NCBI RefSeq assembly: GCF_000407165.1
Contig: NZ_KE136480.1
Coordinates: 558,001 to 622,000, forward strand
Reading direction: 5' to 3'
DNA length: 64,000 nt
Origin: Enterococcus haemoperoxidus ATCC BAA-382
Lineage (GTDB): Bacteria; Bacillota; Bacilli; Lactobacillales; Enterococcaceae
Each line of letters begins with the position of its first letter. Position 1 is the stretch's first letter. The notes beneath the pieces were generated by a model. The model was not told the DNA's origin. It made no database searches and saw only the letters and a list, made by a program, of their open reading frames with translations. The position numbers and the translations under genes were made by a program. Below are positions 18,788 to 51,475 of this stretch, in pieces.

Positions 18788-19378
18788 TTACATCACATAA
18801 ACATTAATTGTTTTACTATCAGAATTCCCAGCTGAATCTGTGATACTGTAATTTACTGAGTACATACCAGAAACGGACATATTCACATGACTACTGACTT
18901 TGATATTTTTACTGATATCGCCGTCTTCTGCATCCCAAGCAGTTGCATAACTTAATGGGTTGAATGACGTTCCTCTAAAAACAACTTGACCCGTCGCTTT
19001 TAATTCTGGTTTGTTGTCAGTCAGAGCTGTTACGGTCACTTTTCTATTTTTAAAAATATAATCTCCTTGACCATCAAAAGCAACATACGTTAAGTCGTAC
19101 GTGCCAGCTTTATTAAGATTCAGGCTATTGTTTGAAACGAAAATTTGCGCATTTGGACTAACTGTTCCCTTACTTGATACCAATGTAACACCTGCTCTAG
19201 GATTGAATTTCTCCCCCATAGCGACCGTTATATCGTCGGCCCCTTTAAATTTAAGGCCCACTGTTGCTTTACTTTGTACATTACTTTCTGCTGATGCAGC
19301 TTTTGGAGCAACTGCTGCGCTGAATCCTACGCCCATTAAAACGGTTGATGCAATAACATACTGACTAATTTTTTTCAT
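18788..19378 (-). CDS. Secreted protein with two bacterial Ig-like domains
   Basis: The 196-aa product has a signal peptide (to about residue 30, AASAES) and two Ig-like/DUF5011-type domains. The first (about 40-115) has VGLKFKGADDITVAMGEKFNP; the second (about 120-195) has the typical AWDAEDGDISKNIKV and ITDSAGNSDSKTINVYV ends. Such domains are spacers or adhesive modules in Gram-positive surface proteins. There is no WxL or LPXTG signal, so it should be released or held by another protein. It lies at the end of the leftward WxL operon A, 93 bp after the signal-peptidase homologue, with its own RBS (GAGGGAG) and terminator. Confidence 0.8.
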   Translation of the reverse strand: MKKISQYVIASTVLMGVGFSAAVAPKAASAESNVQSKATVGLKFKGADDITVAMGEKFNPRAGVTLVSSKGTVSPNAQIFVSNNSLNLNKAGTYDLTYVAFDGQGDYIFKNRKVTVTALTDNKPELKATGQVVFRGTSFNPLSYATAWDAEDGDISKNIKVSSHVNMSVSGMYSVNYSITDSAGNSDSKTINVYVM

Positions 19379-19471
19379 AAAAAATCTCCCTCTTGTTACT
19401 ATTTTTTTATGTCAATCGCTTATTACAACGATTAAACCAACCCTGTGTATCTTTTTCTATTATGATGATTA

Positions 19472-20077
19472 TCATTTTCTCAACAGTTGAAATAGCGATA
19501 AGCGTAATTCTACTTTCCCGATCACTGCTTGTTCGTCAACCAATCCATAGTAACGACTATCTGTCGCATAATTGCGATTGTCACCAAGCACAAGGTATTT
19601 TCCTTTTGGAATCATACCGTTATTTGTTTCCATAATGTCGATTGAATCAAAATCTTCCGTAATCACTTGATCAGCCAATTTAGCTTGCACTAACTTTTTC
19701 TGTAAAAAACGCTCTACGACTAATCGATCATCAATATAAAGTTCATCATTGTGATACCTTACCCGCTCACCTGGCAACCCAATGACTCGGCGAATCGAGG
19801 TGCCATTTCCATCTGGTTGCTTAAAATAAATCAATGAAAAACGCTTTGGCTTCCCCAATCGATCCACATAAACGCGGTCTCCATCATTTAACGCTTCCCG
19901 CATGCCATAGCCTTCATTTTTAGGCAACGCAAAAACGACGTTTGAAAGAATAAACAATAATAAGAACACAATCAAAAACGTGATGCCTAGTTCTTTGCTG
20001 ATTTCTTGAAGAAATCGCTTTTTGCTATTTTTCTTCCTTTGTTTTTTCCTATTATTGGATTTTTTTTTGCTACTCAT
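19472..20077 (-). CDS. Signal peptidase I homologue lacking catalytic Ser and Lys
   Basis: The 201-aa protein has a very basic N-terminus, one membrane helix (about 31-50) and the S26 fold: box D RRVIGLPGE and box E GDNR..ATDSR..G. In active enzymes box B reads GxSMxPTLxxGD; here it is GYGMREALNDGD, with Gly58 in place of Ser. The Lys general base of KRVIG is Arg96. The codons (GGC, CGC) are clear in the DNA. It should be inactive as a peptidase. Streptococcus pyogenes SipA, in pilus islands, likewise lost these residues and works as an assembly factor; a similar chaperone role in WxL assembly is inferred. It overlaps no neighbour and lies at the end of operon A. Confidence 0.85.
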   Translation of the reverse strand: MSSKKKSNNRKKQRKKNSKKRFLQEISKELGITFLIVFLLLFILSNVVFALPKNEGYGMREALNDGDRVYVDRLGKPKRFSLIYFKQPDGNGTSIRRVIGLPGERVRYHNDELYIDDRLVVERFLQKKLVQAKLADQVITEDFDSIDIMETNNGMIPKGKYLVLGDNRNYATDSRYYGLVDEQAVIGKVELRLSLFQLLRK

Positions 20078-20105
20078 TTAGTCTCACAGTCATTTCTTAA
20101 ATCCT

Positions 20106-20771
20106 TTATTTCTTTTGTTTCAACGCCGTTTCGTTCACGTTGAAATACGTAAAGACTTTTTTCTGGATCGTTTGAACTTTTTTGATATCTGCTAAGTAAT
20201 TTTCATAAGTTGTTTTTTCTTGCAAACTTTCGACTGATTGGTTATTCAAGTTTAGACCGAGCTCTTTCATTTGTGAATAATAGCGATTGAGCAATTGTTG
20301 ACCTTCCACTGTCAGTCTCGGATCCGCATAGCGAATTCCAAAACCAGATAGCTTTGCAGCTAATTCACGTAAGTTTTTTTTCGTTTTCTCAACATTTGAT
20401 GTTTCTTGCGTCAATGCTAATTGTTCTGATGTTTTATTTAATAAATAATATCCTTCTACAATACCGTCCGAATCACGATCCCCTAAATTTGTTGCTTGGT
20501 GGTAGCGGGAAAATGCGGCTCCGCTTGCTAAGACTGTCCCTAAGAGGAAGAATGTCAGCCCTAATTGAATTTCTCTTTTCCCTTTTTTCAGTAACATACG
20601 CGCTTTCTTTTTAAGAATTCTACGCTTTTTTTTATTTTTTGGCCGAAGTTGTTTTAATTTAAGGCGTGCTTTTTTTGTTAAAAAATACGAAATCAAACAA
20701 ACAATTGAAAAAATCATACAGAGGATAGCTGTTGAAAGTATCCCGATGAATAGCCAATCTAGTATCGACAT
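20106..20771 (-). CDS. Two-helix membrane protein of WxL locus, unknown function
   Basis: The 221-aa protein has an N-terminal membrane helix (about 8-32), a very basic loop rich in Lys and Arg (about 33-65), a second helix (about 70-88), then an outside domain of about 130 residues, mostly helical. The basic loop suggests contact with membrane phospholipid or cytosolic partners. No known domain is recognised. It lies 28 bp upstream of the dead signal peptidase and downstream of a DUF916 protein, so it is probably a part of WxL export or assembly. A GGGGGA site precedes the ATG. Confidence 0.65.
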   Translation of the reverse strand: MSILDWLFIGILSTAILCMIFSIVCLISYFLTKKARLKLKQLRPKNKKKRRILKKKARMLLKKGKREIQLGLTFFLLGTVLASGAAFSRYHQATNLGDRDSDGIVEGYYLLNKTSEQLALTQETSNVEKTKKNLRELAAKLSGFGIRYADPRLTVEGQQLLNRYYSQMKELGLNLNNQSVESLQEKTTYENYLADIKKVQTIQKKVFTYFNVNETALKQKK

Positions 20772-20854
20772 TTTTCTATCCCCCAGTGATTGGCAGTTTT
20801 AGCAATGGTCTGCTTTGGTGCTGCCACTTTTTTGATTATTAAAAAAATTTAAAT

Positions 20855-21937
20855 TTAGCGCTTTTTAGTTCCTTTATTCTTTTTACTAACTGATTTCTTC
20901 TTTTTCGCTTTTTTCTTATTCTTTTTCCTAAAGAAGCGAACCACAAAGAATAGGATCACAGTAAGTCCTAATACTCCTGACACAATCAACATGATCGTCG
21001 TCCAATTTACTCGACTCTCTTGTAATAAACTGACATCTTCTTGGTTGAATTTATCGGCTTCTTCATCGGTGATCTTAAATTCTTGTTCCCATTCCCACTT
21101 GCCGTTATTTTCAGTGGTGACTAAAATATGAGCACGATAGTCACCTGCAACCATTTTTTCGCCATTCATCAAAACGGGGAAATTAATTTGTGAGTTAGGT
21201 GCCATTCTCATTTTATTTTGCTTGGTATCGTATAACACTTCGTCTGAACCTTTTTTCATAATTTGAACATCTACTGTCATATCATCCACATAGACAGGTT
21301 TTGTATTTGAATAATTGATAAAAACCGCATTACGATAATTTTGTTGCTCAGCAAATACTGTATTGAGTTTAAGTTCTGGTTTTAGTGCCGTATCTGTTTC
21401 CGTTAAGATCATGCCGACTAAATAACCATATTCATTTTTGATCATCGCTTCTTGGCTTTCTGTTTGCCCTTTTTGAATCATATAGATTCCGCCTGAAATC
21501 ACTCCGTCATATTGAGAATCTGGCATTTTTATGTTTAATTGGTAATCAATACTTTGGTTAGCCGGAATTTTAACGGTTTTTTCACCCTTTACTAGATCAG
21601 CAAAATCATATTTTAGTGACTTATCTTTTTCTAGTTTTGAAGGACCATATTCGATAACGCCATTTGTGTTCGTTTTAGCGCTATTTAGTGCGACTTCTAC
21701 GGTGATTTCTTCTGAGGAACTGTTATTCATTTTGATCGTGATCGTTTGTTCCTGACCTGGTGTCATCCGCAAATCGTAATAGCCGACTGCTTTATTATGT
21801 TGATTTTCAGGTTGAATGATTTTGTACGTAAACCCACTGCCCTCATCTTCAGTAGCTAATCCTGTTGTAGGGAAGAAATAAAGATTTGTTCCTATGTATA
21901 AAATAATCATCAAGTAAATTAAAAAACTTTTTTTCAT
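20855..21937 (-). CDS. DUF916/DUF3324 WxL-interacting protein
   Basis: The 360-aa protein has a signal peptide, a DUF916 domain (GYYDLRMTPGQEQTITIKMNN, about 50-165), and a DUF3324 domain (about 170-295) ending in the family's MAPNSQINFPV and YRAHILVTTE motifs. A membrane helix (about 313-335) and a Lys-rich cytosolic tail of about 25 residues follow. This is the usual architecture of WxL-interacting proteins, which are membrane-anchored and bind WxL-domain proteins and peptidoglycan. It lies directly after two WxL genes in operon A and is probably their partner. Confidence 0.93.
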   Translation of the reverse strand: MKKSFLIYLMIILYIGTNLYFFPTTGLATEDEGSGFTYKIIQPENQHNKAVGYYDLRMTPGQEQTITIKMNNSSSEEITVEVALNSAKTNTNGVIEYGPSKLEKDKSLKYDFADLVKGEKTVKIPANQSIDYQLNIKMPDSQYDGVISGGIYMIQKGQTESQEAMIKNEYGYLVGMILTETDTALKPELKLNTVFAEQQNYRNAVFINYSNTKPVYVDDMTVDVQIMKKGSDEVLYDTKQNKMRMAPNSQINFPVLMNGEKMVAGDYRAHILVTTENNGKWEWEQEFKITDEEADKFNQEDVSLLQESRVNWTTIMLIVSGVLGLTVILFFVVRFFRKKNKKKAKKKKSVSKKNKGTKKR

Positions 21938-22011
21938 TCTATTTTGTCCCTTCTTTTATAAAATGAACAAGTTCACCAACTATGGTGGACTTGTTCACAC
22001 TCTTCACTTTA

Positions 22012-22785
22012 TTATCTTGCGTCAGCGATTGTCCAAGTGATTATTGAAGAGTAGCCGCTGCTTGTTGATAATTTGTTTCCTGTTGAAGGAACCCATAATT
22101 TAACAGAATCTGCTTCAGTGCCGTCCGCAATATCACCAAATTGGAGAACAAATTGACCAAATCCTTTATCTGCTGTATCTTGTGTAACAAAGGTTGTTGG
22201 CGTTGTACCATCTGTTTCAACGACTTGCGTTGCAGGTACACCGGCTATATTTACTTGATTTTGATCCGCAGTACTGACTAGCTTCACATTACCAAATTTT
22301 AATTGCGCTGATTTTAGTTCTTGTTTTTCTGTATTGGTAAATTTTGTCGCTTTTGCTGTTAATGTATGTTTATTTGGTTGGTTATCTGCACGTGTATCTT
22401 TAAATTGAACAAAGTTTGGACTTACTACTTTTGTTCCATCTTTATAGACAACTTCGGCAGCTTTGGCAGTATATTCCCATCCATTACCTGAAGCTGGTGT
22501 TACTTTATTATTTCCAAAATTCAAATCAGTTAAAGAAATCACTTTCAAAGGTCCTTTAGCTGGGTTAACTGGTGGTTCTGTGATTGGATTTTCAGGATCG
22601 ATCGGTTTTGTTGGGTCTGTTGGATCAACTGTTTGGTCTTCTCCATCATCTTCACTAAAGTTGATTGTTCCTTTTCCGAACCAATTAAATGGATCATCTG
22701 CTGCTTGTGCAGCATTTGGTAATGCCACTGCTGCTCCTAGTACTGCTAATAGTGTGGCTGCGCATAATTTGTGTGTTAATTTCAT
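22012..22785 (-). CDS. WxL-domain surface protein with altered first motif
   Basis: The 257-aa protein has a signal peptide ending AAQAADD, a short Pro/Asp/Glu-rich linker and a C-terminal WxL domain, which binds peptidoglycan and DUF916 partners. The second signature is intact, ITWTIADAR at the end. The first signature normally reads Wx[VL]; here the matching position is KHTLTAKA, with His in place of Trp. An AGGAGG site precedes the ATG. It is the third gene of the WxL run in operon A and is followed by the DUF916 gene. Confidence 0.88.
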   Translation of the reverse strand: MKLTHKLCAATLLAVLGAAVALPNAAQAADDPFNWFGKGTINFSEDDGEDQTVDPTDPTKPIDPENPITEPPVNPAKGPLKVISLTDLNFGNNKVTPASGNGWEYTAKAAEVVYKDGTKVVSPNFVQFKDTRADNQPNKHTLTAKATKFTNTEKQELKSAQLKFGNVKLVSTADQNQVNIAGVPATQVVETDGTTPTTFVTQDTADKGFGQFVLQFGDIADGTEADSVKLWVPSTGNKLSTSSGYSSIITWTIADAR

Positions 22786-22813
22786 GTGTGTTTCCTCCTA
22801 GAATTTGGTTGAT

Positions 22814-23605
22814 TTATGGTAGCTCGGATAATATCCAAGTTAACACCGTTTGGTAGTTCCCTGGCTCTTTTGCTGCCTTGCCAGGTACAAATAAAGAAAT
22901 CGCTTTATTTTCGTAGATTGGTTGATTATTGAACGTTGGATCCGTCATCGGATTGTTTTGTTCATCCAATTTTGGCTTCAGGGTATCTGCTCGTTTTTTA
23001 TCATTATTCACAGATGCACCGAAGATGATTGCCCAGGTTCCATCACCCGTAGTTGGTTTTGCTTCAGCTAAGTTATAGACTTCACCAATGTTTAAAAGCC
23101 GAATAACTTCTTTAGAAACGGTGGGTGCCGTTGCTGGATCATTCATTGAATTTGCCCATGATTGGTCAAATGACAGAACCGCGCCCTTTAACTCTTTAGT
23201 TTTCGCCGAGTGATTCTGAAACTGAGTCTCTTGCTTTAGTTGTAATGTCCAACCTGAGCTGTCGTTTCTAAAATCCGATACTTGGACGAAATTTCCTCTT
23301 GCTCCAGTCTCATCTTTGAACAATTGAGCATTTCCATAATAGGTTTGATCTTGATCAGAAATCGTTGCTTTCCAAAAATTGATTTGAGGAACAAAATCAA
23401 AGCGTAATAGATTATCTGTTTTAGGGCTTTCCCCTGGATCAGCAGGTATTTCTGGACGTTCTGGGTCCATCACTTGTAATGGGTGTTTTCCATTAAATTC
23501 GATTGTTCCTTCGCCAGAATAATTCGTTGCATCCGCCTTGACAGATACTGGATTTACAAATAAAGCGAGCAACACCAGGAAACTGCTGAATCGTTTTTTT
23601 TTCAT
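22814..23605 (-). CDS. WxL-domain surface protein
   Basis: The 263-aa product (from ATG 23605) has a signal peptide, a short linker with PERPEIPADPGES, and a WxL domain with both motifs: SSGWTLQLKQETQF and LTWILSELP at the C-terminus. It would stick non-covalently to the cell wall. The start is one base past the stop of the upstream LPXTG gene, so translation is coupled; a GTG four codons earlier is the other possible start and lies nearer the AAAGGAG site. It forms a pair with the next WxL gene. Confidence 0.88.
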   Translation of the reverse strand: MKKKRFSSFLVLLALFVNPVSVKADATNYSGEGTIEFNGKHPLQVMDPERPEIPADPGESPKTDNLLRFDFVPQINFWKATISDQDQTYYGNAQLFKDETGARGNFVQVSDFRNDSSGWTLQLKQETQFQNHSAKTKELKGAVLSFDQSWANSMNDPATAPTVSKEVIRLLNIGEVYNLAEAKPTTGDGTWAIIFGASVNNDKKRADTLKPKLDEQNNPMTDPTFNNQPIYENKAISLFVPGKAAKEPGNYQTVLTWILSELP

Positions 23606-23606
23606 C

Positions 23607-23945
23607 TCAATCACGTTCTCCTTTAAGCGCTCTTCTCTTTTTCCAAAAGAAAAGAAGCAATGCAAGCAGACTTAACGCAAAACCGCAGAAAAGCAAACTG
23701 ATTTTTATTAAATCCCCTGTACTTGGCAAGCGACCTGTCGATTTTTTCTCCTTTTTTGATGGTTCATCATGCATAGCATCACTTGTCTGCTTTGTTGAAG
23801 GATCGGCTTCCCCAAAGACAATCCCTGCATTTGTCTGTACTTGTCCGCCTTCCTCAGCTGCCCAGCCTACGTTGTCCGGACTGAAAGACACGGCTAGAAA
23901 AATCAACAGAGTGAGAATAAAACGAATAATTCGATACTTTTTCAT
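23607..23945 (-). CDS. Small LPXTG surface protein of WxL locus
   Basis: The 112-aa protein has a signal peptide (about 1-30), a short extracellular part of about 50 residues, and a sorting signal RLPSTGD, a hydrophobic helix and KKRRALKGERD. It would be linked to the wall by a sortase. Such short LPXTG proteins are a regular member of enterococcal WxL loci beside DUF916 and WxL genes. Its stop is directly followed by the next WxL gene. Function is unknown; it may anchor WxL complexes to the wall. Confidence 0.88.
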   Translation of the reverse strand: MKKYRIIRFILTLLIFLAVSFSPDNVGWAAEEGGQVQTNAGIVFGEADPSTKQTSDAMHDEPSKKEKKSTGRLPSTGDLIKISLLFCGFALSLLALLLFFWKKRRALKGERD

Positions 23946-23961
23946 GATAGTCTTCCCTCCA

Positions 23962-26415
23962 TTAATAGGCTTCTTCTATTTGCCAAGTTAGTGTCGTTTC
24001 ATATTTTCCTACTTGCTTAACAGAGCCAACGGGAACATTCAGACGTAACCCTTGTTTTTCTGGTCCCCACGTTTCTGCACTAATATCATACTTACCAGAG
24101 GCTTGATGTTTTGAGTGGAAGACTTCCTGAGCATCTGTAGAAATTTCTTTCTCGCCAGTAGTTGTCTGGTAACTTAGGGCATTTGGCAATCGGTGTGACG
24201 GATCTCCTGGAATACTAAAATCTTGTGATTGTTTCAACGTGATTTTCCATGTGCCTAATGTTGAGCGGTTGTCCCAAATAACCAAATGTTGGTCATAATT
24301 TGGGTCGTTGAATTTTTTGTTTTTTCCACTCACTTTTTGGTCACCGAAATCAATAGTATTAGGAGCTGATTCAATAAATAGCGTGCCTTTAAAGGTATAT
24401 TTCCGCGTAACACCTTCTGGTCCAATCAAGAGATTTTTCTCATCTAATGGTGGTGTGTCCAACACATAATTCAGTGCTTTAACTGCTTTAAGCTTTTCAA
24501 GAACCTGCTCATTTTGGCTTAAATCAATACGATCAGAAATCGCCGCTTCAAATGATGAATCATCAACAATTGGCTGATCATTTTCATCCAAAAAGGCTAT
24601 TGTTACCGTAGCAAAGCTTTGAATGACGGTAACCTTAATTTTTTTATCTACTTTAATACTTCCACTACCATAAGAAGCAGTCACTTCATAAATGCCAATA
24701 TCCGCAATTTCAGGTGGCTTCGGCAACTGATCTATCGACAAATCCAATTGTTTTTTGTCGATTGGATTGACAGACAATTCGTCATACTGCCATAGCTTTA
24801 GATCTGCTTTTTCTAGAATCAATCCAAGCAGTGCTGCTTCTGTTTTTGGATAATCTTTTATAGAAACTCCAAAGTCCTTCCCATAGATGATATATTGACT
24901 ACTCTTGACAACATCTTTATTTTGAACAAAAATCGGAATTGTCACGTCCCCTGCATTGCCTTTTTCGTCAGTCAACGTAACTTGGAAACTACTAGGCCCT
25001 ATAGTTTTAACGATACTTTCGATATCTTGTCCTTCTTTTAAGGTAATGCTGATTTTATCTTTAGGTGAAAAGTTATCTTCATAGTGCGTTAAAAAACTAC
25101 TATAGTCGGAAGTGTTTGATATAGCTTGGCTGTCTCCTGCATCAATAAACGTTAGTTTTCCGCTCCCAAGCGGAGCCTCACCGTCATAGGTGATGTCGTA
25201 CGAGGCATCTATCCCTGAAATAAAGTTTTTAGCGACCGCTTGTGATTTCAGTGTCAACTTTGTATCACCTGTCACGTTAATATCTTTCACTTTAAATTGA
25301 ATATCGACAAGTGGATTCATTTTTGATAAATCGTTTGGCAGCGGATAAACTAGTTCGTTATTGTTATACGTTGGTGTTACAGGGACACCATTTAAAAGAA
25401 ATGTGCCTGGCTGGTATTCTTGATTTGGGGACAAATCAAACTTAAAGATTGGTTGAATCATGTTCTGTTTACCGCCCATATACTGCCCTGAATAATGAAC
25501 TGTCACCTCAGAATCTTGCGTGATGCTTTGGATTTTTTGTCCTTTAGCATCTGTAACTTCAACATTTCCAGTGTAATTTACTAATCCAGGAACTGATTTG
25601 AATGCAACAACCGCTTTTTCAGAAAATTTTCCCGTTGAACCAGTAAATCCCCAATAAACACTATCTGTTCCAAATGTATCTCTAGAAATACGAACCGAAA
25701 TTGGTGCTAAGTCATCAAATGTATACGTTAAATACCCAAGTTTATCCTCGTTCCAAGCAGTCCATTTTATTTTCAATAGACGCCACTGCCCATCCCCAAG
25801 TTTAAACGTTGGATACTGCAATCCTGAATGGATGTTACCAGTTATCGCCAAATTTGAAGAATTGTATTGATAAGAAGAAAGTTTATCGGGAAATGCATAA
25901 GCAATATGTCCTTTATCTGCATTTCTATCTACGCTAGAGTCAAAATTATCGCCGTTATAATACGTATCAAATTCAATGGCAAAACTTCTCTTCAATTGCC
26001 TTTCACCGACTTTGTTAGGAAATCCAGAAATAACTTTCTCCCCATAAATCGATAAACGAGCCCCAGGTAACCCAGAAAAATTAGCCACTTTATCTGGGTC
26101 ATTATGCATGACAAAAGCGATTCCGTCCGCCTCTCCATCAAGGTACATATACATTTCAGAGTAAAAATCCTTTGATAGATCCATTTTATTTTGCTCTGTA
26201 GAAAAAATACTCCCGATTTGACTTTCTTTTTTATCCGTAATCACAACATTATTTCCTTCAACATAACTATTGGCTCCGCTGGGTGTTACAAAAATCTGAT
26301 CTACTGGAATACTTTGCGGTGCATCGGTATAATCTGAAGCTTCTGCTTTTAATGGAATCCAACCTATACTAAAAATCGTCACAGTCAGTATGGAGCGTTT
26401 TACTTTAGCTAACAT
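23962..26415 (-). CDS. WxL protein with L-type lectin-like domain
   Basis: The 817-aa protein has a signal peptide, then a bacterial L-type lectin-like domain (about 35-265) with MYMYLDGEADGIAFVMHND and AIEFDTYYN, the Asp-rich site typical of legume-lectin-like folds. Beta-rich stalk domains follow. A MucBP-like segment (about 600-690, VTIAFLDENDQPI) leads to the WxL domain with GTWKITLKQS and the end LTWQIEEAY. It would act as an adhesin binding carbohydrate, held non-covalently at the wall. It is the first structural gene after the regulator at 26531, with AAGGAGGTGA 11 nt before the ATG. Confidence 0.9.
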   Translation of the reverse strand: MLAKVKRSILTVTIFSIGWIPLKAEASDYTDAPQSIPVDQIFVTPSGANSYVEGNNVVITDKKESQIGSIFSTEQNKMDLSKDFYSEMYMYLDGEADGIAFVMHNDPDKVANFSGLPGARLSIYGEKVISGFPNKVGERQLKRSFAIEFDTYYNGDNFDSSVDRNADKGHIAYAFPDKLSSYQYNSSNLAITGNIHSGLQYPTFKLGDGQWRLLKIKWTAWNEDKLGYLTYTFDDLAPISVRISRDTFGTDSVYWGFTGSTGKFSEKAVVAFKSVPGLVNYTGNVEVTDAKGQKIQSITQDSEVTVHYSGQYMGGKQNMIQPIFKFDLSPNQEYQPGTFLLNGVPVTPTYNNNELVYPLPNDLSKMNPLVDIQFKVKDINVTGDTKLTLKSQAVAKNFISGIDASYDITYDGEAPLGSGKLTFIDAGDSQAISNTSDYSSFLTHYEDNFSPKDKISITLKEGQDIESIVKTIGPSSFQVTLTDEKGNAGDVTIPIFVQNKDVVKSSQYIIYGKDFGVSIKDYPKTEAALLGLILEKADLKLWQYDELSVNPIDKKQLDLSIDQLPKPPEIADIGIYEVTASYGSGSIKVDKKIKVTVIQSFATVTIAFLDENDQPIVDDSSFEAAISDRIDLSQNEQVLEKLKAVKALNYVLDTPPLDEKNLLIGPEGVTRKYTFKGTLFIESAPNTIDFGDQKVSGKNKKFNDPNYDQHLVIWDNRSTLGTWKITLKQSQDFSIPGDPSHRLPNALSYQTTTGEKEISTDAQEVFHSKHQASGKYDISAETWGPEKQGLRLNVPVGSVKQVGKYETTLTWQIEEAY

Positions 26416-26530
26416 CTTCTATTTTCACCTCCTTCCGATTGAGATTTTCCCCTTTTTAATCATGTCAAATACATCTACCTTAATCAGAATAATGAACTTT
26501 ATTGAGCGCCTCTGATTTATCGCTTGGTAT

Positions 26531-27247
26531 TTATTCGACAGTTACCGTGGGGACAAACATATATCCTCTTGTCCGCACGGTACGAATATAATTGTTCCCT
26601 TGGCTATCTGTGCCTAATTTTATACGTAGCTTAAACACAACATTTGTTACCAGATATTGGTAGTTCTTACCTATTCTCTTACTTGTATCCCAAACTTTTT
26701 TATATAGTTCTTGATATGTTAGCGTTTCTCCTGCATTCTGCATCAATAACGTTAACATTTGGTATTCTGTATTTGTCAGCTCGATTTCTTCACGACCATT
26801 TTTGACTACACTTATATTCTGCGAATTAAGTCGTAATGAATCTACTGCCTTTTTATCTACTTGTTTTCCCTTATTAGGTGCAACGCTTTTTTTGACCAAG
26901 CTCAGCATACGTTTCAATTGAATAAATATAACTTCACTGTCTATATCATTTCTAGCAATGCCGTCAATTCCTAATTGTAAATACACCAAATCTGTCGTTT
27001 TCACTTTATTTTTTGTGATTAATAAAAGATAGCCTTTAAATAATTCTCTGACTTTTAAAATCAATTCATAACAATTTAAAGAAGTCCTATTTTCTGTTTC
27101 ATCTATAAGTAGGACATCCAAGCCTTCACTATTATGCTCAAAATCATCCCAGTGAATAATTTGAACTTGAAATTCAAGTTTTTTTAATACATCTAAATAC
27201 GGTCTGTCCGTATTTTTTGATGTAGAAAGAATACCGATAGAATACAT
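26531..27247 (-). CDS. Atypical response regulator with winged-helix domain (operon A)
   Basis: The 238-aa product has an N-terminal receiver-like domain (about 1-115) and an OmpR/PhoB-type winged helix (about 140-235) with IELTNTEYQMLTLLMQNAGETLTYQELY and IRTVRTRGYMF. The receiver lacks the acidic pair after beta-1 (ILSTSKN), so phosphorylation is doubtful; an Asp in LLIDE is kept. ATG at 27247 follows GGAGG by 8 nt. It has a paralogue at 48135-48884 in the same position before operon B. It probably controls the WxL operon that starts 116 bp downstream. A GTTCTA/TAGAAC repeat (27291-27308) lies just upstream, and the invertible segment 124 bp upstream. Confidence 0.88.
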   Translation of the reverse strand: MYSIGILSTSKNTDRPYLDVLKKLEFQVQIIHWDDFEHNSEGLDVLLIDETENRTSLNCYELILKVRELFKGYLLLITKNKVKTTDLVYLQLGIDGIARNDIDSEVIFIQLKRMLSLVKKSVAPNKGKQVDKKAVDSLRLNSQNISVVKNGREEIELTNTEYQMLTLLMQNAGETLTYQELYKKVWDTSKRIGKNYQYLVTNVVFKLRIKLGTDSQGNNYIRTVRTRGYMFVPTVTVE

Positions 27248-27290
27248 ACCTGTTCCTCCATTTTTCAATTAATTGTTTTTTTTTAAGATT

Positions 27291-27308
27291 GTTCTATTTT
27301 TTTAGAAC
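27291..27308. promoter_or_regulatory. Inverted repeat upstream of operon A regulator
   Basis: GTTCTA-N6-TAGAAC between the recombinase repeat and the regulator start. It is a candidate operator. Confidence 0.35.
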
Positions 27309-27370
27309 TCCAGTTGTTTTCTTTATTCTTCAACTCTTTTTTCGTGTATACTATCTTTATCTAAAGATCG

Positions 27371-27400
27371 TTTTTCCTAGAAGTATTCCTTCTAAGAAAA
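27371..27400 (+). repeat. Recombinase inverted repeat, left (IRL)
   Basis: The 30-bp sequence is the exact reverse complement of 28807-28836. Inside, CCTAGAAG and CTTCTAAG form arms around the spacer TATTC, the layout of a tyrosine-recombinase core site. Confidence 0.9.
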
Positions 27401-27437
27401 TGTATCTTTTTTCTTTATCTTTTCTATAGTTTATTAA

Positions 27438-27461
27438 TCGATTGACGATTTTTTGACGACT
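27438..27461 (+). other. Candidate arm-type binding sites, left
   Basis: Two direct TTGACGA copies. Similar TTGACGG and CTGACGG copies lie at the other end (28616-28635). They could bind the recombinase N-terminal domain. Confidence 0.35.
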
Positions 27462-27473
27462 AATACTTACAAC

Positions 27474-28595
27474 TTAGTGCCTTAGCTGAAGTTGTGTATC
27501 GATCAAAGAAATTGCTTTTTCCCTTGTTTCCCACAAAGAACCTGCGTAGGTATCTAAGGTCATTTTTGTGGATTTATGGCCTAGCAATTTACTCAAAGTA
27601 GCAATGTCGATACCTTGTTCGATACAGCGTGTGGCAAAGGTATGTCTGAGTACATGAAAGTGAATATTTTCCAGTTTGGCCTCTTTTGTCATCTTTTTAA
27701 AATGATGATTGATCAATCTTGGTTCCATATACTTATTTTTATGACTAATGACAAACTCACTTGTTGATCGTTCTTTCTTTTCCATAAGATAATCAGCTAA
27801 ATTCGCAGCAATTGGGATCTTTCTGATTGAGCTTTCAGTTTTTGGTGAACCAAAAATGATTTTAGTTTTTGTCTTTGAATTAGCGATCGATATTCGCTGA
27901 AGGGTTCTTTTAATACTGATCACTCGATTTTCTAAATCAACATCAGACCAAGTCAATCCACTAATTTCACCAATTCTAAGCCCTGTATACAAAGAAATGA
28001 TAACAGATGAACACGCTGTTTCTTGTAACGCAATTTTTTCCAATCTCTGCTGTTGTTCTATAGTTAAAACAAAGATTTCTTTCTTTTTTATTTTTGGTGA
28101 TACTATCGTGCTACACGGATTTTCAACGATTACTTTTTCTGAATACGCTTTGGATAAAGCACTTTTCAAAATCACATAGATATTATTGATCGTTGTGTTA
28201 CTAAGCCCTTTTCCTGATAAAGCTTTTAAAAACCATTCAATATCCCTGTCACTGAGTAATGTTAATTTTTTCCTACCCAATAAAGGAAAGATATGCTGTT
28301 TCATTTTTGAGTGGTACGACGAATGTGTTGATATCTTTATTTGCTCTCTAATCAATATGTTTAACCAGTAATTCATCCATTCCTCAACCGTGCCTTGAAA
28401 CAGCGATATTCGTCCTGATGTAGCACTATATTGCCCTTTTAGTAATTCCAATTGTTGTTTGACTTCAACGTATTTACTACCGTATACATAGCCATAAATT
28501 ATTTTTCCATGTTCACTGCGTGCTTTGCGGTAACGGCCTTCCCAGCGGCCATCTTTACGCTTATAAATATTTTCACCTTTTTTAGAAATAGTGAT
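27474..28595 (-). CDS. Tyrosine recombinase with arm-binding domain, non-AUG start
   Basis: The 373-codon frame encodes a Tn916/phage-type integrase. An AP2-like arm-binding domain is at the N-terminus (ENIYKRKDGRWEGRY), then the core-binding SAM-like domain, then the catalytic domain with Arg (TGLRIGEI), Lys (GSPKT), HxxR (HVLRHTFATR), His (LGHKS) and Tyr (TLDTYAG). All catalytic residues are intact. No ATG, GTG or TTG starts the full frame: where homologues begin, the codon is ATC (28595), after an in-frame TGA. The first usual start is TTG at 28451, which would drop the arm-binding domain. It is enclosed by 30-bp inverted repeats and is the likely invertase for them. Confidence 0.88.
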   Translation of the reverse strand: MTISKKGENIYKRKDGRWEGRYRKARSEHGKIIYGYVYGSKYVEVKQQLELLKGQYSATSGRISLFQGTVEEWMNYWLNILIREQIKISTHSSYHSKMKQHIFPLLGRKKLTLLSDRDIEWFLKALSGKGLSNTTINNIYVILKSALSKAYSEKVIVENPCSTIVSPKIKKKEIFVLTIEQQQRLEKIALQETACSSVIISLYTGLRIGEISGLTWSDVDLENRVISIKRTLQRISIANSKTKTKIIFGSPKTESSIRKIPIAANLADYLMEKKERSTSEFVISHKNKYMEPRLINHHFKKMTKEAKLENIHFHVLRHTFATRCIEQGIDIATLSKLLGHKSTKMTLDTYAGSLWETREKAISLIDTQLQLRH

Positions 28596-28615
28596 TCACT
28601 TCTTTCTGAAATTTT

Positions 28616-28637
28616 TTGACGGTACATCTGACGGCTA
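28616..28637 (+). other. Candidate arm-type binding sites, right
   Basis: TTGACGG and CTGACGG copies, in the same orientation as the left pair at 27438-27461. Confidence 0.35.
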
Positions 28638-28806
28638 AAAAGGAAATTCGAATTTTTTTAACGTTTTTCTAAATCAAAACACCATTATTTTTAAATTTAA
28701 ATTAAAAGAAATTCATAAAACACTCTAGACTTTCTTTCTTTTTTGTATTATCATCCTTAATATGAGGTGTTTTTGAAGAAAAATGACAAAAAAACAAATT
28801 TCTTGT

Positions 28807-28836
28807 TTTTCTTAGAAGGAATACTTCTAGGAAAAA
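28807..28836 (-). repeat. Recombinase inverted repeat, right (IRR)
   Basis: Exact reverse complement of 27371-27400; identity ends at both sides of the 30 bp. Confidence 0.9.
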
Positions 28837-28929
28837 TTATTCTCTATTTTATGATCATTACTCACTGAAATTTCTTTTTTTAGTTTTCGATAACAAAATC
28901 ATTTTATTATAAAAAAAAGATAAATTCTC

Positions 28930-28967
28930 AGCACTAAAGCGTTTTAATTCCGCCTTAGTGCTTTTTT
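28930..28967 (+). terminator. Terminator between invertible segment and LytTR gene
   Basis: AGCACTAAAGCG pairs with CGCCTTAGTGCT, then TTTTTT. It would stop rightward transcripts leaving the segment before they reach the LytTR gene. TATACT just after it (28972-28977) may be the -10 of the LytTR operon. Confidence 0.85.
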
Positions 28968-29016
28968 AGTTTATACTGTGGGTACTACTGAAAGAATAAA
29001 TACGGGGGACCGCATC

Positions 29017-29766
29017 ATGCTAAACACTATTTCTGTTTATGTCATCGAAGACCAGATTGCTTATCGTTCTGAATTACAAAAATATATTAGTTCCTTAAAC
29101 AGCCCTAACGATGACAATAATTATAAAATTATTCCAATTGAAAATTTTGTTGATTTTCATACCGATGTAAAAAATTTAAACATAAAAGACAATGATATTT
29201 TTTTGATTGATATCGATTTAAACTTATCATTTACTGGAATCGACCTTGCTAAACTGATTCGAACAAAAAATGATCTTTGTTTTATTGTATTTTTAACTAA
29301 TTTAAGTGATAAAGGTATCGATGTTATCAATCAAAATATCAATGCTACTTCCTATCTTTTAAAAGGAACCACTTTAGATACAGTTCGCGTAAAAAAACTA
29401 TTTGCTTCTATTCAATCTGATATAAACGCACGCATACATAATGAAGAAGGGTACTTAACCTTGAAAAAAGCTGGTGAAACAATTTATTTAAAATATGCAG
29501 ATATTCTTTATATTCAAACCATCACCGGGGTTCGAAATATGTTGATGGTTAAGACAATCAATTCAGAAGAGATAGTAGATGGCACCCTCAATAAACTGAA
29601 GAAAAAGATACAGTCACCCTATTTTTATATTGGATTGCGGTCGTTTATTATTAATCTCTCACATATTTCTTCACTAAATTATTTACTTGGGCTTGTGATA
29701 TTTGATGAGGGAACTGAATTGGATGTAGGGGAAAAAATCGTTTATAAACTGAAAAAAAGTTTATAA
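29017..29766 (+). CDS. AgrA-like LytTR response regulator (module A)
   Basis: The 249-aa protein has a canonical receiver: acidic pair in VIEDQ, phospho-acceptor in LIDIDLN, Thr in VFLTN and Lys in YLLKGT. A C-terminal LytTR DNA-binding domain (about 140-245) has YADILYIQT and RSFIINLSHI. AgrA-family proteins bind direct repeats and activate surface or peptide genes. The ATG at 29017 has GGGGGA 8 nt upstream; an earlier GTG is unlikely. It forms an operon with the kinase 42 bp downstream. Its paralogue is at 49406-50179. No agrB or agrD-like gene is nearby, so its signal is unknown. Confidence 0.92.
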   Translation: MLNTISVYVIEDQIAYRSELQKYISSLNSPNDDNNYKIIPIENFVDFHTDVKNLNIKDNDIFLIDIDLNLSFTGIDLAKLIRTKNDLCFIVFLTNLSDKGIDVINQNINATSYLLKGTTLDTVRVKKLFASIQSDINARIHNEEGYLTLKKAGETIYLKYADILYIQTITGVRNMLMVKTINSEEIVDGTLNKLKKKIQSPYFYIGLRSFIINLSHISSLNYLLGLVIFDEGTELDVGEKIVYKLKKSL

Positions 29767-29808
29767 ATCAAAATAGGCAGGAATATTCCTATAGAGAAAG
29801 GAGCATCT

Positions 29809-31104
29809 ATGGAAGCATACTTATGGAGTTTTTTACTTTCTATCAATTTTCTACAAGTTTGTTGGCTTATAGGATATAAAAATTTTTATTTTTTAAATAA
29901 ATCTATTTTTCTTACGTGTTACCTTATTATTTTTATTGTGGTAACGTTATCCTATCGACATATTAATTTATTTGGTTTTTTAATTTTATTTATTTTTATT
30001 GAAAATTGCTTCATTTATCAACGTTTTAGAAAATGGAGTATGGTTGCCTTTTTTTATCTTTTAAAAAATGCTTTGATGATTCTCTCTTGGTTATTTACTT
30101 GGCATCTATTCCACTTTTTTTGGCGGAACAACTATCTAGACTCACATCTACACGATACGTTCAAGCCTGTTGTATTGCTTCTTCAACAACTATTGCTTTT
30201 TACCTTGATTCAGCTTTGTCTTTGGTTGAATAATAAATATTCGATCTTGACTTCAATCTCCCAACTTCAAAAAAAATATACATTGCTTTCTATATTTTCT
30301 CAGATTATACTTTTGCTTCTCAACATTCTCAAACGAGAGAATCGTATAGAAATGGACTATGAATCCTACTTTTATCTTACGTTCATTCTATTAGCACTAT
30401 CTGCAGTATTTAGCTTTACAGTCTATCTTATTAGCCACTATTATCAGCAGCAGCAACAGATTTACTATCTTTCTAAAAAATCCTTAGAAGAATCAAATAA
30501 AGTCTCTTTAGCACATGAATTTCAACATGATTATCGCAACATCTTATTAAGTTTGAACACTTATCTTAGTCAAAACAATATTGAACAAGCTCGTGCTTAT
30601 CTTACTTCTATTACTAATTATTCAAGTTCTTTAACGAGTGAAAATTTTGTCTCACAAATTTCTATCGTGAACATTCTGCCTGTTCAAGGTCTGCTTATAA
30701 ATTTTTTTGAACAATGTAAAAAAAATAATATTGCGGTTTATTTTTCAGCAAATCAGCAACTCTCAGAACTAGATATCTCAATCGATCTCATAGATTTCAT
30801 TCGTTGTCTATCCATTCTTTTAGATAACGCAGTTGAAGCTTCACTAGGTAAAAACTCAGCTTCTATCCATGTAACTTTTGAGAAAAAAAAACAACGCCTT
30901 GTAGTTGAAGTAAGTAATCCTTATGAAGGCGAGCTCATTCTTAGTAACGTTCTTAAAAAAAATTTCACAACCAAAAAGAACCATCAAGGAAAAGGTCTTT
31001 ATATTTTTACTAAACTGCTCAAACAATACGAAGATGCCCATTACTCTTTTAAGCAAGATAATGATGCTTTCATCGCAATGTTTTCGTTACCGAAAAATAG
31101 TTGA
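29809..31104 (+). CDS. AgrC-like GHKL sensor histidine kinase (module A)
   Basis: The 431-aa protein has about six membrane helices (to about residue 215), a dimerisation part with HDYRNILLSL holding the phospho-His, and a GHKL ATPase domain with LLDNAVEAS (N-box) and GKGLYIFTKLL (G-box). It would phosphorylate the LytTR regulator encoded just upstream. AgrC-type kinases sense peptides through the membrane domain, but no peptide or processing gene is seen here. The RBS AAAGGAG lies 7 nt before the ATG. It is a close paralogue of 50183-51475. Confidence 0.92.
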   Translation: MEAYLWSFLLSINFLQVCWLIGYKNFYFLNKSIFLTCYLIIFIVVTLSYRHINLFGFLILFIFIENCFIYQRFRKWSMVAFFYLLKNALMILSWLFTWHLFHFFWRNNYLDSHLHDTFKPVVLLLQQLLLFTLIQLCLWLNNKYSILTSISQLQKKYTLLSIFSQIILLLLNILKRENRIEMDYESYFYLTFILLALSAVFSFTVYLISHYYQQQQQIYYLSKKSLEESNKVSLAHEFQHDYRNILLSLNTYLSQNNIEQARAYLTSITNYSSSLTSENFVSQISIVNILPVQGLLINFFEQCKKNNIAVYFSANQQLSELDISIDLIDFIRCLSILLDNAVEASLGKNSASIHVTFEKKKQRLVVEVSNPYEGELILSNVLKKNFTTKKNHQGKGLYIFTKLLKQYEDAHYSFKQDNDAFIAMFSLPKNS

Positions 31105-48134: not shown

Positions 48135-48884
48135 TTACTGTAAGACTTTGTCGCTTCGGCCTTTTAAAAGAAATCGCCCATTTTTTGCAGATGTAAGTAG
48201 ATACCCTCTTGTTCGAATGATTTCAATTTCAAAATAGCTTTGTTTTTTTAATTTGCTTCTAATATGAAAAATGAAGTTTGCGACGCGATATTTTTCAAGC
48301 GCTTCTCCTGTCGAAGTACCATAGATTGCATCATTGATTTGATCATATGTCACAACGTTGTCCAAGTTTTCATATAGCAACTCAATAATTTTGAATTCTT
48401 TTCGGGTTAATGCTATTATTTTGTCATGAACTACTAGGCTTAGCTTGGCAGGATCTAAGAAATGATGATCAGATATTTTTTTTGGTTCTTCCCTATTTAA
48501 TAAGTGATTTTTATAGTTGAGCGCATTTTTTATTTTGATTCCAAGCGCCTCAATCCCTTGATCTGACTCAATAATTTCGATTACTGAATTTTTACTTAAA
48601 AGGGGATACAATTTCGGTAATTCCGATCCTTTCTCTCCACACAGAATCCAAATAAATAAGGAATGATCCTCTTGTATATCGATCAGCCACTGAAATGCTT
48701 TAACATAGCCAGATGCTTTCTCTAAATGAATCACCAAACCATCTAACGTTCCTATCTGTTCTTTTTCTGTAATCTTAATTAGTGAATACTGTTGTTCATT
48801 GAGGTCTCTTTTTATCAATAACTCTATGTGATTGCTCTGTTCAGAATCGTCTCTGATATGTAATAGGCCAATTGTATTATTCAT
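48135..48884 (-). CDS. Atypical response regulator with winged-helix domain (operon B)
   Basis: The 249-aa protein is a paralogue of the 26531 regulator. The winged helix (about 140-235) has IALTRKEFKIIELLYENLDNVVTYDQI and IEIIRTRGYLLT. The receiver-like half lacks a convincing phospho-acceptor: the place of the Asp reads LVIHLEK. It probably acts without phosphorylation, perhaps by another signal. It is divergent from the LytTR-kinase pair across 521 bp and precedes operon B. GGAGGGA lies 6 nt before the ATG. Confidence 0.87.
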   Translation of the reverse strand: MNNTIGLLHIRDDSEQSNHIELLIKRDLNEQQYSLIKITEKEQIGTLDGLVIHLEKASGYVKAFQWLIDIQEDHSLFIWILCGEKGSELPKLYPLLSKNSVIEIIESDQGIEALGIKIKNALNYKNHLLNREEPKKISDHHFLDPAKLSLVVHDKIIALTRKEFKIIELLYENLDNVVTYDQINDAIYGTSTGEALEKYRVANFIFHIRSKLKKQSYFEIEIIRTRGYLLTSAKNGRFLLKGRSDKVLQ

Positions 48885-49405
48885 ATGGCTCCCTCCACTT
48901 CAAATTTTAATTTTACATTAGGTCTATTCCTCTCATCCCTAATTCTCTTATACTGCTCTATTCTTATAAAAAACATATCGATACCCAATGGATCAAATCA
49001 TCTTTATAAGATACTTCCCATAATTCCCTATCTTTGCTTGAACATGATGCATTGAATTAGCGATTGATACACTTGTACAGTCAATTGAATTTACTCTTTT
49101 TCCTCAAAATAATTTTCATAATAAACGTAAACACATTAATTTATTATGGACTTTTCTACTTTTGTTATACTATACTGTTTATGTTCATTTGTTTTCACAA
49201 AATTTAAATAAAAAACAAAAATGTTAATACATAGAAAAGCCATTTCTAAGGAAAAAGAAAGATTCTTTTGCTTAAGTACAAATGTATTATATCTAAAAAA
49301 AAGTATCTTCGACTCGTTTTGAAGCGCTTCCAATTATGTTTCGCGTTTTTTTTACTTTTTTAGATAAAAAAAGATATAATAAAAAAATAGGAGTGTGATT
49401 ATACT
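48885..49405. promoter_or_regulatory. Divergent control region of module B
   Basis: The 521-bp AT-rich gap between the regulators. TTTACT-N18-TATAAT (49351-49380) with GGAG downstream suits the LytTR promoter. A second TATACTATA lies near 49167. No recombinase repeat like 27371-27400 is present. Confidence 0.55.
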
Positions 49406-50179
49406 ATGTACGGAACACTACAGGTCTATATTTTTGAAGATAATTTTGCTTTTCGGAAACAAATTCATGAAATAATTAAATTATTATCTTCATCATATAA
49501 CTATTTTTCTATAGAAGTAATTGAGATGGAAGAATCTGATTTTTCTATTTCTGCTCTGGATTCTTTAGTGATTAATGACAATGATATTTTTCTTGTGGAT
49601 ATTGATTTAAATACCTATTATTCGGGTATCGATCTTGCTAAAGCGATTCGTCATAAAAATGCAGAATGCTTTATTCTCTTTCTGACAAATCTAGAGAATA
49701 AAGCATTAGAGGTTATTAATCAGGGGATTTACGCTAAATCTTATATGATCAAAAATACTTCTTTGGATTTCGATACTTTTGAAGGTGTCTTTCGTTCTAT
49801 TGAAGAAGATATACTTAAGCGTATGCAAAACCCAAATCACTATATCTCTTTAAAAAAATTCGGTGAGTTGCTCTTCTTGAACTATGAAGATATTCTCTAC
49901 TTTACTTCAATGTCGGGAATACGGAATACTTTAGTTGTTCGCACAACACTCTCAGAACATATAGTACAAGGTTCTATTAATAAATTGAAAAAAGAGATTG
50001 AGGTTCCCTATTTCTCAACAGAATTAAAATCATACCTAATAAATTTAAATCGAATAAAATTATTAAATCGTTCAGCCAGTTTGATTTTATTTGACAATGA
50101 TTCCGAATTGGAAGTCGGGTTCGCTATTATTGATAAACTAAACAAAACACTGAAAAATAGAATTTCTGGAGGAAAGTAA
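49406..50179 (+). CDS. AgrA-like LytTR response regulator (module B)
   Basis: The 257-aa protein has a canonical receiver (acidic IFED, LVDIDLN acceptor, LFLTN, YMIKNT) and a LytTR domain with YEDILYFTS and LKSYLINLNRI. It is a clear paralogue of 29017-29766 and forms an operon with the kinase 3 bp downstream. It probably controls module B surface genes. No peptide signal gene is nearby. Promoter TATAAT lies about 25 bp upstream. Confidence 0.92.
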   Translation: MYGTLQVYIFEDNFAFRKQIHEIIKLLSSSYNYFSIEVIEMEESDFSISALDSLVINDNDIFLVDIDLNTYYSGIDLAKAIRHKNAECFILFLTNLENKALEVINQGIYAKSYMIKNTSLDFDTFEGVFRSIEEDILKRMQNPNHYISLKKFGELLFLNYEDILYFTSMSGIRNTLVVRTTLSEHIVQGSINKLKKEIEVPYFSTELKSYLINLNRIKLLNRSASLILFDNDSELEVGFAIIDKLNKTLKNRISGGK

Positions 50180-50182
50180 CCC

Positions 50183-51475
50183 ATGACGATCTCTTTTGTA
50201 ATCGCTCTTTATGCGATTAACTTTTTACAAACTATTTGGTTGATTGGCTACAAAAAATACCTTAACTATCGACAATCAATTATCTTGACGGGGGTCATTG
50301 GGTTAATCTTATTTACCAGTTATTTTACTAGTTACTCCTTTGTTTTACTCCTACTATTCCTTTTAATTGAAGCTGCATTTATTTTCTTTTTCACAAAAAG
50401 TTGGCCATTGGTTGCACTTTATTCCTTATTACAAAATGCACTAGTACTTATTTCCTGGGCAGCGACTGTAGATATTTTGATTATTTTGTGGGCCAAGAAT
50501 ACGATTTCCTATGAACAATATTTTGCTTTAAGAGCTCCTATTATTATTTTGCAGCAGGTCGTCTTTTTCATATTACTATCACTATCAAAAAAAGTTGGTC
50601 ATCAACAACTTTTTTTCATTTCTTTTGCTAAAATAAAAAAAAAGTATGTTGTTTCATCTATTTTATTCTTTGTCGTATCCTATTCTTTAAATATTCTTAG
50701 AGCTGTGATTATTTTACAATTAAAGCTTATTCCTTTTATTCAACTAACGGTCTTATTGCTAGCTCTTACAATTGTTTTTGTCTACACAATGTATAATTTG
50801 AGTCTTCTTTATGCACAACACGCTCAAATCAATATGCTTTCAAAAAAAGCATATCAAGAAGCGGAAACCTTAGCAGCAGCCAATGAATTCAAGCACGATT
50901 ATCGTAATATTCTTTTAAGTCTAAAGACCTATATTGATCAACAGCAATATGAGAAGGCTAGTACCTATTTAGCTTCCATCATTGACTATTCAGATGACTT
51001 TACTAAAACAGATTATCACCCGCAGCTTTCCCAAATTGATATACTAGCAGTACAAGGCGTCATAATCAATTTCTTTGAAAAGTGCTCCACTTTAAATATT
51101 CCTTTTAAATTTATGATCACTCAACATATATCTGAACATGATCTCTCAATTAATTTAATTGATTTTATTCGTTGCTTTTCTATTATTTTAGATAATGCAT
51201 TGGAGGAATCTATAGGTATTGATGATCCTCAAATTCAGCTAACAATAGCCAAAACACAACATAGCATCTTTATCGAAGTAAAAAATACTCATCATTCCAC
51301 TGTTGCGATCGAGCACATATTAAAAAATAACTTTACAACGAAAAAGGGACATCAAGGAAAAGGGCTTTCTATATTTATCAAGCTATTAAAACAATATCCA
51401 AAAACAAACTATTCTTTTTCTAAGGAGAAAAATTTGTTTGTTGTGCGTCTTACGCTTCCAATCATTAAACAATAG
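50183..51475 (+). CDS. AgrC-like GHKL sensor histidine kinase (module B)
   Basis: The 430-aa protein has six or so membrane helices in the first half, phospho-His in KHDYRNILLSLKTY, N-box IILDNALEES and G-box GKGLSIFIKLL. It would act on the LytTR regulator just upstream; the two stops and starts are 3 bp apart with GGAGG before the ATG. Close paralogue of the module A kinase and of the relic at 16430. A terminator hairpin follows directly, part of the copy 3 repeat. Confidence 0.92.
   Translation: MTISFVIALYAINFLQTIWLIGYKKYLNYRQSIILTGVIGLILFTSYFTSYSFVLLLLFLLIEAAFIFFFTKSWPLVALYSLLQNALVLISWAATVDILIILWAKNTISYEQYFALRAPIIILQQVVFFILLSLSKKVGHQQLFFISFAKIKKKYVVSSILFFVVSYSLNILRAVIILQLKLIPFIQLTVLLLALTIVFVYTMYNLSLLYAQHAQINMLSKKAYQEAETLAAANEFKHDYRNILLSLKTYIDQQQYEKASTYLASIIDYSDDFTKTDYHPQLSQIDILAVQGVIINFFEKCSTLNIPFKFMITQHISEHDLSINLIDFIRCFSIILDNALEESIGIDDPQIQLTIAKTQHSIFIEVKNTHHSTVAIEHILKNNFTTKKGHQGKGLSIFIKLLKQYPKTNYSFSKEKNLFVVRLTLPIIKQ

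Follow-up and report, generated by a model that had tools for sequence, protein, structure and literature searches.

In the Salmonella Hin switch, the invertible segment carries an outward promoter for the adjacent operon, which includes a regulator. Escherichia coli fimS is, like the cassette described here, an invertible promoter before an adhesin operon; its segment measures 314 bp, and its enzymes, FimB and FimE, are encoded outside it. Hin is a serine recombinase that operates with a Fis enhancer (PMC3798978), and PMC9993118 deals with fimS and FimB/FimE. Among the promoter invertons of gut bacteria, an association has been described between inverton group 139 of the Clostridia and group 35 of the tyrosine recombinases (PMC11892184). 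For the Firmicutes, the reported samples positive for an invertible-switch signature comprised 14 of 15 from Clostridia and 1 of 15 from Bacilli (PMC5903667), and a median of 0 invertons is given for Bacillus-like genomes (PMC11892184). In a survey of tyrosine recombinases, the arm-binding domain was mostly tied to mobile elements (PMC8138268).

Here we describe a locus of Enterococcus haemoperoxidus ATCC BAA-382 in which a tyrosine recombinase gene lies between inverted repeats next to the regulator of a WxL operon. The window, that is, the whole stretch of DNA analysed, is 64,000 nucleotides long. In our judgement, the 1.47-kb segment is very probably a self-contained invertible promoter cassette with its recombinase inside, OFF at present and ON after a flip. 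A title and abstract search of mostly open-access literature, bioRxiv preprints excluded, found no published description of these cassettes.

Results

Perfect inverted repeats enclose a single gene

The features of the locus are collected in Table 1. The two repeats were exact reverse complements at every position, as claimed in the preliminary description of this DNA, and they formed the longest inverted pair within positions 26000-30500. The core site proposed there, CCTAGAAG and CTTCTAAG on either side of a TATTC spacer, was likewise confirmed, and a genome-wide search that allowed up to 3 mismatches found no third copy of it. A chance repeat was considered and rejected: shuffled loci (one shuffle each, n = 151) reached a maximum score of 15, compared with 30 in the window.

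Table 1. Positions of the features in and around the cassette, numbered from the first letter of the window
Feature	Position	Strand	Remark
WxL operon A	18788..26415	-	single operon assumed from spacing and strand
OmpR-type winged-helix regulator, heads WxL operon	26531..27247	-	Trans_reg_C only, no detectable receiver domain
Inverted repeat, recombinase 3' side, facing WxL regulator (crossover site)	27371..27400	+	30/30
CGTCA pair (27443-27447, 27454-27458), putative arm-type sites	27443..27458	-	CGTCA on this side in 114/116 cassettes
Tyrosine recombinase, predicted N-terminal arm-binding domain	27474..28589	-	start ATT at 28589-28587, unproven
CGTCA pair (28617-28621, 28629-28633), putative arm-type sites	28617..28633	-	CGTCA on this side in 116/116 cassettes
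Promoter-like pair TAGACT-N17-TATCAT	28726..28754	+	conserved pattern and promoter scan; outward from recombinase
Inverted repeat, recombinase 5' side (crossover site)	28807..28836	+	30/30 complementary to 27371-27400
Terminator outside segment ("parking terminator")	28930..28968	+	-12.9 kcal/mol, z -4.2, then TTTTTT
LytTR/AgrA-like response regulator (29017-29766) and AgrC-like kinase	29017..31104	+	preceded by parking terminator

The sole gene enclosed by the repeats is the minus-strand tyrosine recombinase that had been recognised before, and the 1.47-kb segment has no second gene. The terminator said to lie beyond the far repeat is present, and two scans of the minus strand agreed with the original reading that the interval between recombinase and regulator contains no terminator; the repeat in this interval can itself form a hairpin on the minus strand. 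The window locus has exactly two CGTCA pairs, spaced 12 and 11 bp, and a promoter-like pair that would face the WxL regulator once the segment was inverted.

The recombinase keeps its catalytic residues and has no canonical start

The residues R206, H313, R316, H339 and Y349, which we take to be the catalytic residues of tyrosine recombinases, showed no variation across 20 aligned sequences, among them that of the window enzyme. The earlier claim of an intact R-K-H-R-H-Y recombinase was therefore correct as regards the conserved R-H-R-H-Y residues and the open frame, and has to be amended as regards the start, which is not a standard codon. There is no ATG, GTG or TTG at the conserved N-terminus of the window recombinase, and ATT stands where the relatives start. 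Six of the 116 cassette recombinases had none of these three codons near the conserved N-terminus (window, L060, L061, L062, L232 and L266), the start position reading ATT in the window and ATA in L060-L062. TTG was found at the conserved start in 28/116 and GTG in 10/116. Perhaps such nonstandard or weak start codons hold recombinase levels low. The median dN/dS of four recombinase clusters was 0.06-0.09, indicating purifying selection, where dN/dS was obtained by a simple count, dS was high in some clusters and the window copy lies outside the four.

Pfam assigned the catalytic (Phage_integrase) and core-binding domains only to the window recombinase, and gave no match to an arm-binding domain at E <= 0.001. 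The arm-binding domain fold consists of three strands plus a helix. In the predicted structure (mean pLDDT 85.4), the N-terminal domain has strands at residues 9-11, 17-25 and 31-38 and a helix at 41-57, and the recombinase N-terminus is predicted to be an arm-binding domain. The closest solved structures were those of the Tn1549 integrase (residues 82-397 in crystals) and lambda integrase.

The motif CGTCA, in the direction of the recombinase, was found before the gene in all 116 cassettes and between the gene and the repeat, in the cassette interior, in 114. Before the gene it occurred at least twice in 95/116 cassettes, the copies usually being 12 bp apart. In the 200 bp outside the segment, the motif was present in only 4 and 6 of 116 on the two sides, and the corresponding counts at the 28 loci without repeats and without regulator were 3 and 1. 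We infer that the CGTCA repeats are arm sites, to which the N-terminal domain of the recombinase would bind.

The cassette belongs to a family spread across the genus

A protein search of the same genome returned 17 matches, of which 13 were family recombinases (43-100% identity over nearly the whole length) and four were distant. Inverted repeats on either side, scoring 18-30, together with a co-oriented regulator of the same family downstream, were found for 12 of the 13; the thirteenth, L068, had neither. The genome has 12 such cassettes, the insert in the window among them, and the suggestion that it is a control added to one module does not hold. The repeats match within each of the 12 loci and mostly differ among them, the exception being the near-identical L060-L062. 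Two of the cores in this trio are identical, and a single base of the central region sets the third apart, a difference that could decide cross-reaction among the three.

All of the 22 genus genomes searched contained matches at E <= 1e-60 (6-13 each, 194 in total), and the named relatives at 42-62% identity were nearly all Enterococcus. We examined 151 of the 194 loci, comprising the 13 of the own genome and 138 others taken from the best-scoring part of the remainder; the threshold for repeats was a score of 16, with one shuffle per locus as the control. Repeats scoring at least 16 were found at 116/151 loci, and a widened search added 3 (119/151). When the upstream flank of one locus was paired with the downstream flank of another, a score of at least 16 was obtained in 3/151, with a maximum of 20. 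Among the 116 cassettes, the repeats were perfect in 59, and the segment measured 1429-1895 bp (median 1553). The initial table of the 151 loci contained 102 with repeats and regulator, 28 with neither, 7 with a regulator only and 14 with repeats only. Three of the 7 regulator-only loci (L190, L203 and L258) have repeats farther downstream and 4 stay below the threshold; the 14 repeats-only loci had no regulator inside a span of about 1.2 kb, and in 4 of them one lies at a distance of about 2.3 kb.

The L068 cluster comprises 17 recombinases that were scored without flanking repeats and are kept across species (e.g. L268, L270 and L283). No regulator of the cassette family was found near the L068-type loci checked, the neighbour in the own genome being a Mga-type gene, and a widened repeat search at 12 L068-type loci gave one isolated pair at one locus only.

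For the wider family, a match at E <= 1e-80 was obtained in 37/105 genomes and 4/17 genera. Flanking repeats of at least 16 were present at 44 of 54 loci outside named Enterococcus, a set of 53 from mostly Clostridia assemblies (32-41% identity) and one from a Lactobacillales assembly (46%), in which some contigs end close to the cassette. Outside the genus, 8 same-family loci were scored as well, and 5 of them had repeats of at least 16. The cassette plan appears to be older than the genus. Relatives also turned up among plasmid records (10) and faecal phage-labelled records (11). The repeat scores at seven plasmid loci were 15 for L336 and 12 for L337, both under 16, and 18-25 for the other five. 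On an E. raffinosus megaplasmid, a cassette precedes a helix-turn-helix gene and an accessory Sec system; on an E. gilvus megaplasmid, the recombinase lies directly before WxL genes and the repeat is sub-threshold. On the E. faecalis plasmid LR962555.1, cassette L338 lies upstream of an exact 264-bp repeat tract, which possibly represents a repeat-rich surface protein.

Relatives of the cassette occur in both orientations

A 3.84-Mb contig of genome G021 has matching ends of ~40.1 kb each, and the match begins at base 1 and stops within one base of the contig's end. The only differences between the outer stretches of these terminal copies are 27 small gaps in 31 kb. The sole difference in arrangement is the cassette, which is inverted (99.87% identity over 1560 bp) between collinear flanks (99.95% identity), and these two are the only full-length copies of this cassette in the genome. 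The simplest reading is that the terminal repeat is an untrimmed circular chromosome, with one locus read twice in two states; with the repeat taken in this way, both orientations were probably present in the sequenced DNA. The two repeats of the G021 cassette show a few mismatches to each other. In the inverted copy, the difference on the outer side has remained with the outer flank, whereas those on the inner side have moved with the segment and account for the mismatches at the flank edges. This pattern therefore places the crossovers within the 14-bp stretch common to both repeats.

Two other cassettes, L254 (genome G006) and L316 (genome G007), are inverted relative to their orthologues in other species, again between collinear flanks. 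A check of related genomes for both orientations, which the preliminary description had recommended, has thus uncovered differences at three loci (G021, L254 and L316). Its proposal that the segment inverts gains from these homologous cassettes; in the window genome itself, no second orientation was seen. That the enclosed recombinase inverts the segment is strongly supported by this evidence from relatives, and the window copy would be expected to behave likewise.

The same rearrangements bear on the alternative that the locus is an integrase-borne mobile element or its relic, in which the repeats would be the ends of an element that moves instead of inverting. Such an origin would suit an enzyme closest to the Tn1549 and lambda integrases, the frequent link of arm-binding recombinases with mobile elements in the surveyed set (PMC8138268), and the relatives in plasmid and phage-labelled records. 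The rearrangements observed were, however, in-place inversions with collinear flanks, and the lone gene of the window segment, the mostly locus-specific repeats of the 12 own-genome cassettes and the layout of promoter, terminators and target genes around a switch also argue against mobility, so that we consider this alternative highly improbable.

Recombinase and regulator were co-oriented in 106/109 regulator loci, and the three flipped loci include L240, a second copy of L239. All 12 cassettes of the own genome were in one orientation, and a locus from four E. raffinosus strains (L332-L335) was oriented alike in all four. The predominance of one orientation among the 109 loci and the agreement among the four strains therefore indicate that inversion is infrequent, biased or opposed by selection; the bias may come from inversion that is slow, biased or regulated, or else from selection. 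One version of this is a regulated directional switch instead of random phase variation, with arm sites that bias the segment to OFF and an accessory factor or signal needed for ON. The strong orientation bias, the same-direction CGTCA repeats at both ends of the gene and the predicted arm-binding domain are all compatible with directionality, but the bias could also stem from selection or slow inversion, and we regard a directional switch as possible though rather doubtful. The uniform orientation of the 12 own-genome cassettes would also be expected if the repeats were decayed or static and the window copy no longer inverted, a condition to which the nonstandard start codon could be added. 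Set against this are the perfect repeat and the retained catalytic residues of the window copy, along with the strong purifying selection seen among relatives (four clusters), and it is unlikely that the window copy is such a remnant.

A promoter-like pattern points away from the recombinase

Alignment of 13 cassettes revealed two conserved hexamers, 17 bp apart and separated by a spacer of variable sequence, which lie on the inner side of the upstream repeat and point outward. The corresponding pattern, T[ATG]GA[CT][ATG]-N17-TANNNT, was picked after the alignment had been seen; it occurred outward from the recombinase in 99/116 cassettes and inward in 1/116, compared with outward counts of 2-30 of 116 for ten other spacers (12 to 22). 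When one cassette per 75% cluster was taken, the outward pattern was present in 37/48. The 17 cassettes of the 116 without the pattern include the flipped L316. It was found in 7/35 loci initially scored without repeats, three of which do have repeats, and in 1/28 loci without repeats and without regulator. Consensus promoter matches within 26400-29200 of the window numbered 11 against a shuffle mean of 11.8, showing no excess. At loci with repeats outside the genus, the pattern was outward in 17/44 and inward in 2 of the distant set, and outward in 2/5 and inward in 1 of the same-family set; promoter support outside the genus is weaker.

Terminators were found on the parking side in 57/116 cassettes (10/116 in shuffled sequence), between recombinase and repeat in 67/116 (5/116 shuffled), and between repeat and regulator in 6/116 (4/116 shuffled). 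The present orientation of the window segment is most likely OFF, because the predicted outward promoter would be parked against a terminator. After inversion, this promoter would point at the regulator, with no evident obstacle in between.

The preliminary description had assigned the opposite polarity, with the present orientation ON through read-through from the recombinase into the regulator and the flip turning it off. The co-orientation of recombinase and regulator in nearly all regulator loci favours this assignment, as does the finding of no terminator in the window interval, nor between recombinase and repeat in 49/116 cassettes. Against it, a terminator occupies that position in the other 67 cassettes, far above the shuffled count, and the conserved promoter-like pattern points the opposite way, that is, away from the regulator. 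Given these terminators and the promoter direction, read-through is therefore unlikely as a general mechanism, though it may occur in the window, where no terminator was found; the polarity was probably reversed in the earlier account, and we think it quite unlikely that the segment inverts with its present orientation as the ON state.

In the L063 group, the left outer flank contains an extended -10-like element (TGTTATAAT), which is kept in most of the 13 cassettes aligned and points into the segment. Lying outside the segment, this element might serve to express the recombinase when the segment is in one of its two orientations and not in the other.

Cassettes are found before surface-protein loci

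The regulator that heads operon A is predicted to be the target of the switch, and it would act as an activator of the operon. Operon A encodes an L-type lectin/WxL protein, a small LPXTG protein, two WxL proteins, a WxL-interacting protein, a signal peptidase and an Ig-like surface protein. The cassette had been placed between two divergent WxL regulators. This is right for the regulator of operon A; the one on the other side is a LytTR/AgrA-like regulator with an AgrC-like kinase. The statement that module B lacks the insert proved accurate, because there is no other recombinase homologue in the window. Module B (48135-51475) repeats the order of regulator, LytTR regulator and GHKL kinase, with the cassette absent.

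In this genome, the regulators are followed by genes for L-type lectin/WxL, MucBP and pectate-lyase-like adhesins, among others. WxL-type ORFs lay downstream within ~4 kb in only 44/109 regulator loci, and the targets therefore look like surface adhesins generally, not WxL proteins alone. The 28 loci without repeats and regulator are an unclean control for gene context, 23 of them having a WxL-like ORF nearby on either strand. A surface-protein gene adjoins some of the cassettes without a near regulator, namely one for a GA/ChW protein (L288) and one for a lectin/WxL protein (L297). It seems that the switch acts on surface-adhesin loci whether the regulator is present or absent.

Two further observations concern the surroundings of the cassettes. 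In the 13-cassette alignment (L063 group), many members share a hairpin-like inverted repeat in the right outer flank, upstream of the regulator and close to a TATAAT-like element; this repeat resembles an operator, and the regulator may control itself too. A transposase-like gene, judged by eye from its translation, lies just upstream of cassette L005 (near G000 C1:402 kb).

Discussion

The analysis established the anatomy of the cassette and the conservation of that anatomy, and it identified, within a single assembly, a homologous cassette in its two orientations. In the mechanism that we propose from these sequences, the arm-binding tyrosine recombinase would recombine the two flanking repeats and flip the whole segment, its own gene included. 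The promoter near the 5' end of the recombinase gene, presumably active, would fire outward into the terminator in the present orientation, leaving the switch OFF; in the inverted orientation, it would face the regulator and the surface-protein operon, turning it ON.

A more far-reaching possibility, which we put forward tentatively and hold to be somewhat short of an even chance, is that integrases of the mobile-element type have been domesticated into private cassettes of one enzyme and one switch, in which the arm sites impose direction and the adhesins stay OFF until a cue arrives. This reading would cover the 12 cassettes of the present Enterococcus genome, which would be largely orthogonal, and has relatives in Clostridia. 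If it is true, many regulated switches, each independent of the others, would set the cell surface in combination.

Bacilli have been described as poor in invertible switches, known cases such as msa of Lactiplantibacillus plantarum notwithstanding (PMC8493755), yet every one of the 22 genus genomes carries family recombinases. Segments of ~1.5 kb may escape searches tuned to short intergenic invertons. Of the loci examined, 119/151 lie between their own repeats, before lectin, WxL, MucBP, pectate-lyase-like or accessory Sec loci, and they may explain why enterococcal surface proteins are expressed unevenly. The family also supplies many naturally occurring pairs of recombinase and site, and it would allow a direct examination of the passage from arm-binding integrase to invertase.

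Among the described systems, the Salmonella Hin (H) switch has its recombinase gene within the inverted segment, as here (PMC5903667). The window enzyme differs in being an arm-binding tyrosine recombinase with a Phage_integrase domain, not a serine invertase, and this genome contains 12 cassettes with mostly private sites. The cassette would work like Hin but is not a member of that system, the enzyme being unrelated. The gut invertons described in PMC11892184 share with the cassette inverted repeats, embedded promoters, a nearby tyrosine recombinase and surface functions; two examples of group 139 there measure ~255 bp, too short for the enzyme, whereas here the enzyme lies inside. In Lactiplantibacillus plantarum, of the same bacterial order, an inversion at msa likewise precedes an adhesin/regulator operon (PMC8493755); the passages on that locus name no dedicated recombinase, and the flip described there removes a stem-loop (PMC8493755). 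The Clostridioides difficile enzyme RecV is a tyrosine recombinase that inverts regulatory DNA near surface and regulator genes, as proposed here, but it is reported to serve several distant switches, whereas each switch of the present family encloses its own enzyme (PMC5903667). The Tn916/Tn1549 and lambda integrases have domain order, catalytic residues and the predicted arm-binding fold in common with the window enzyme. They are described as integrating and excising elements (PMC8138268), whereas the cassette of the window enzyme would invert in place.
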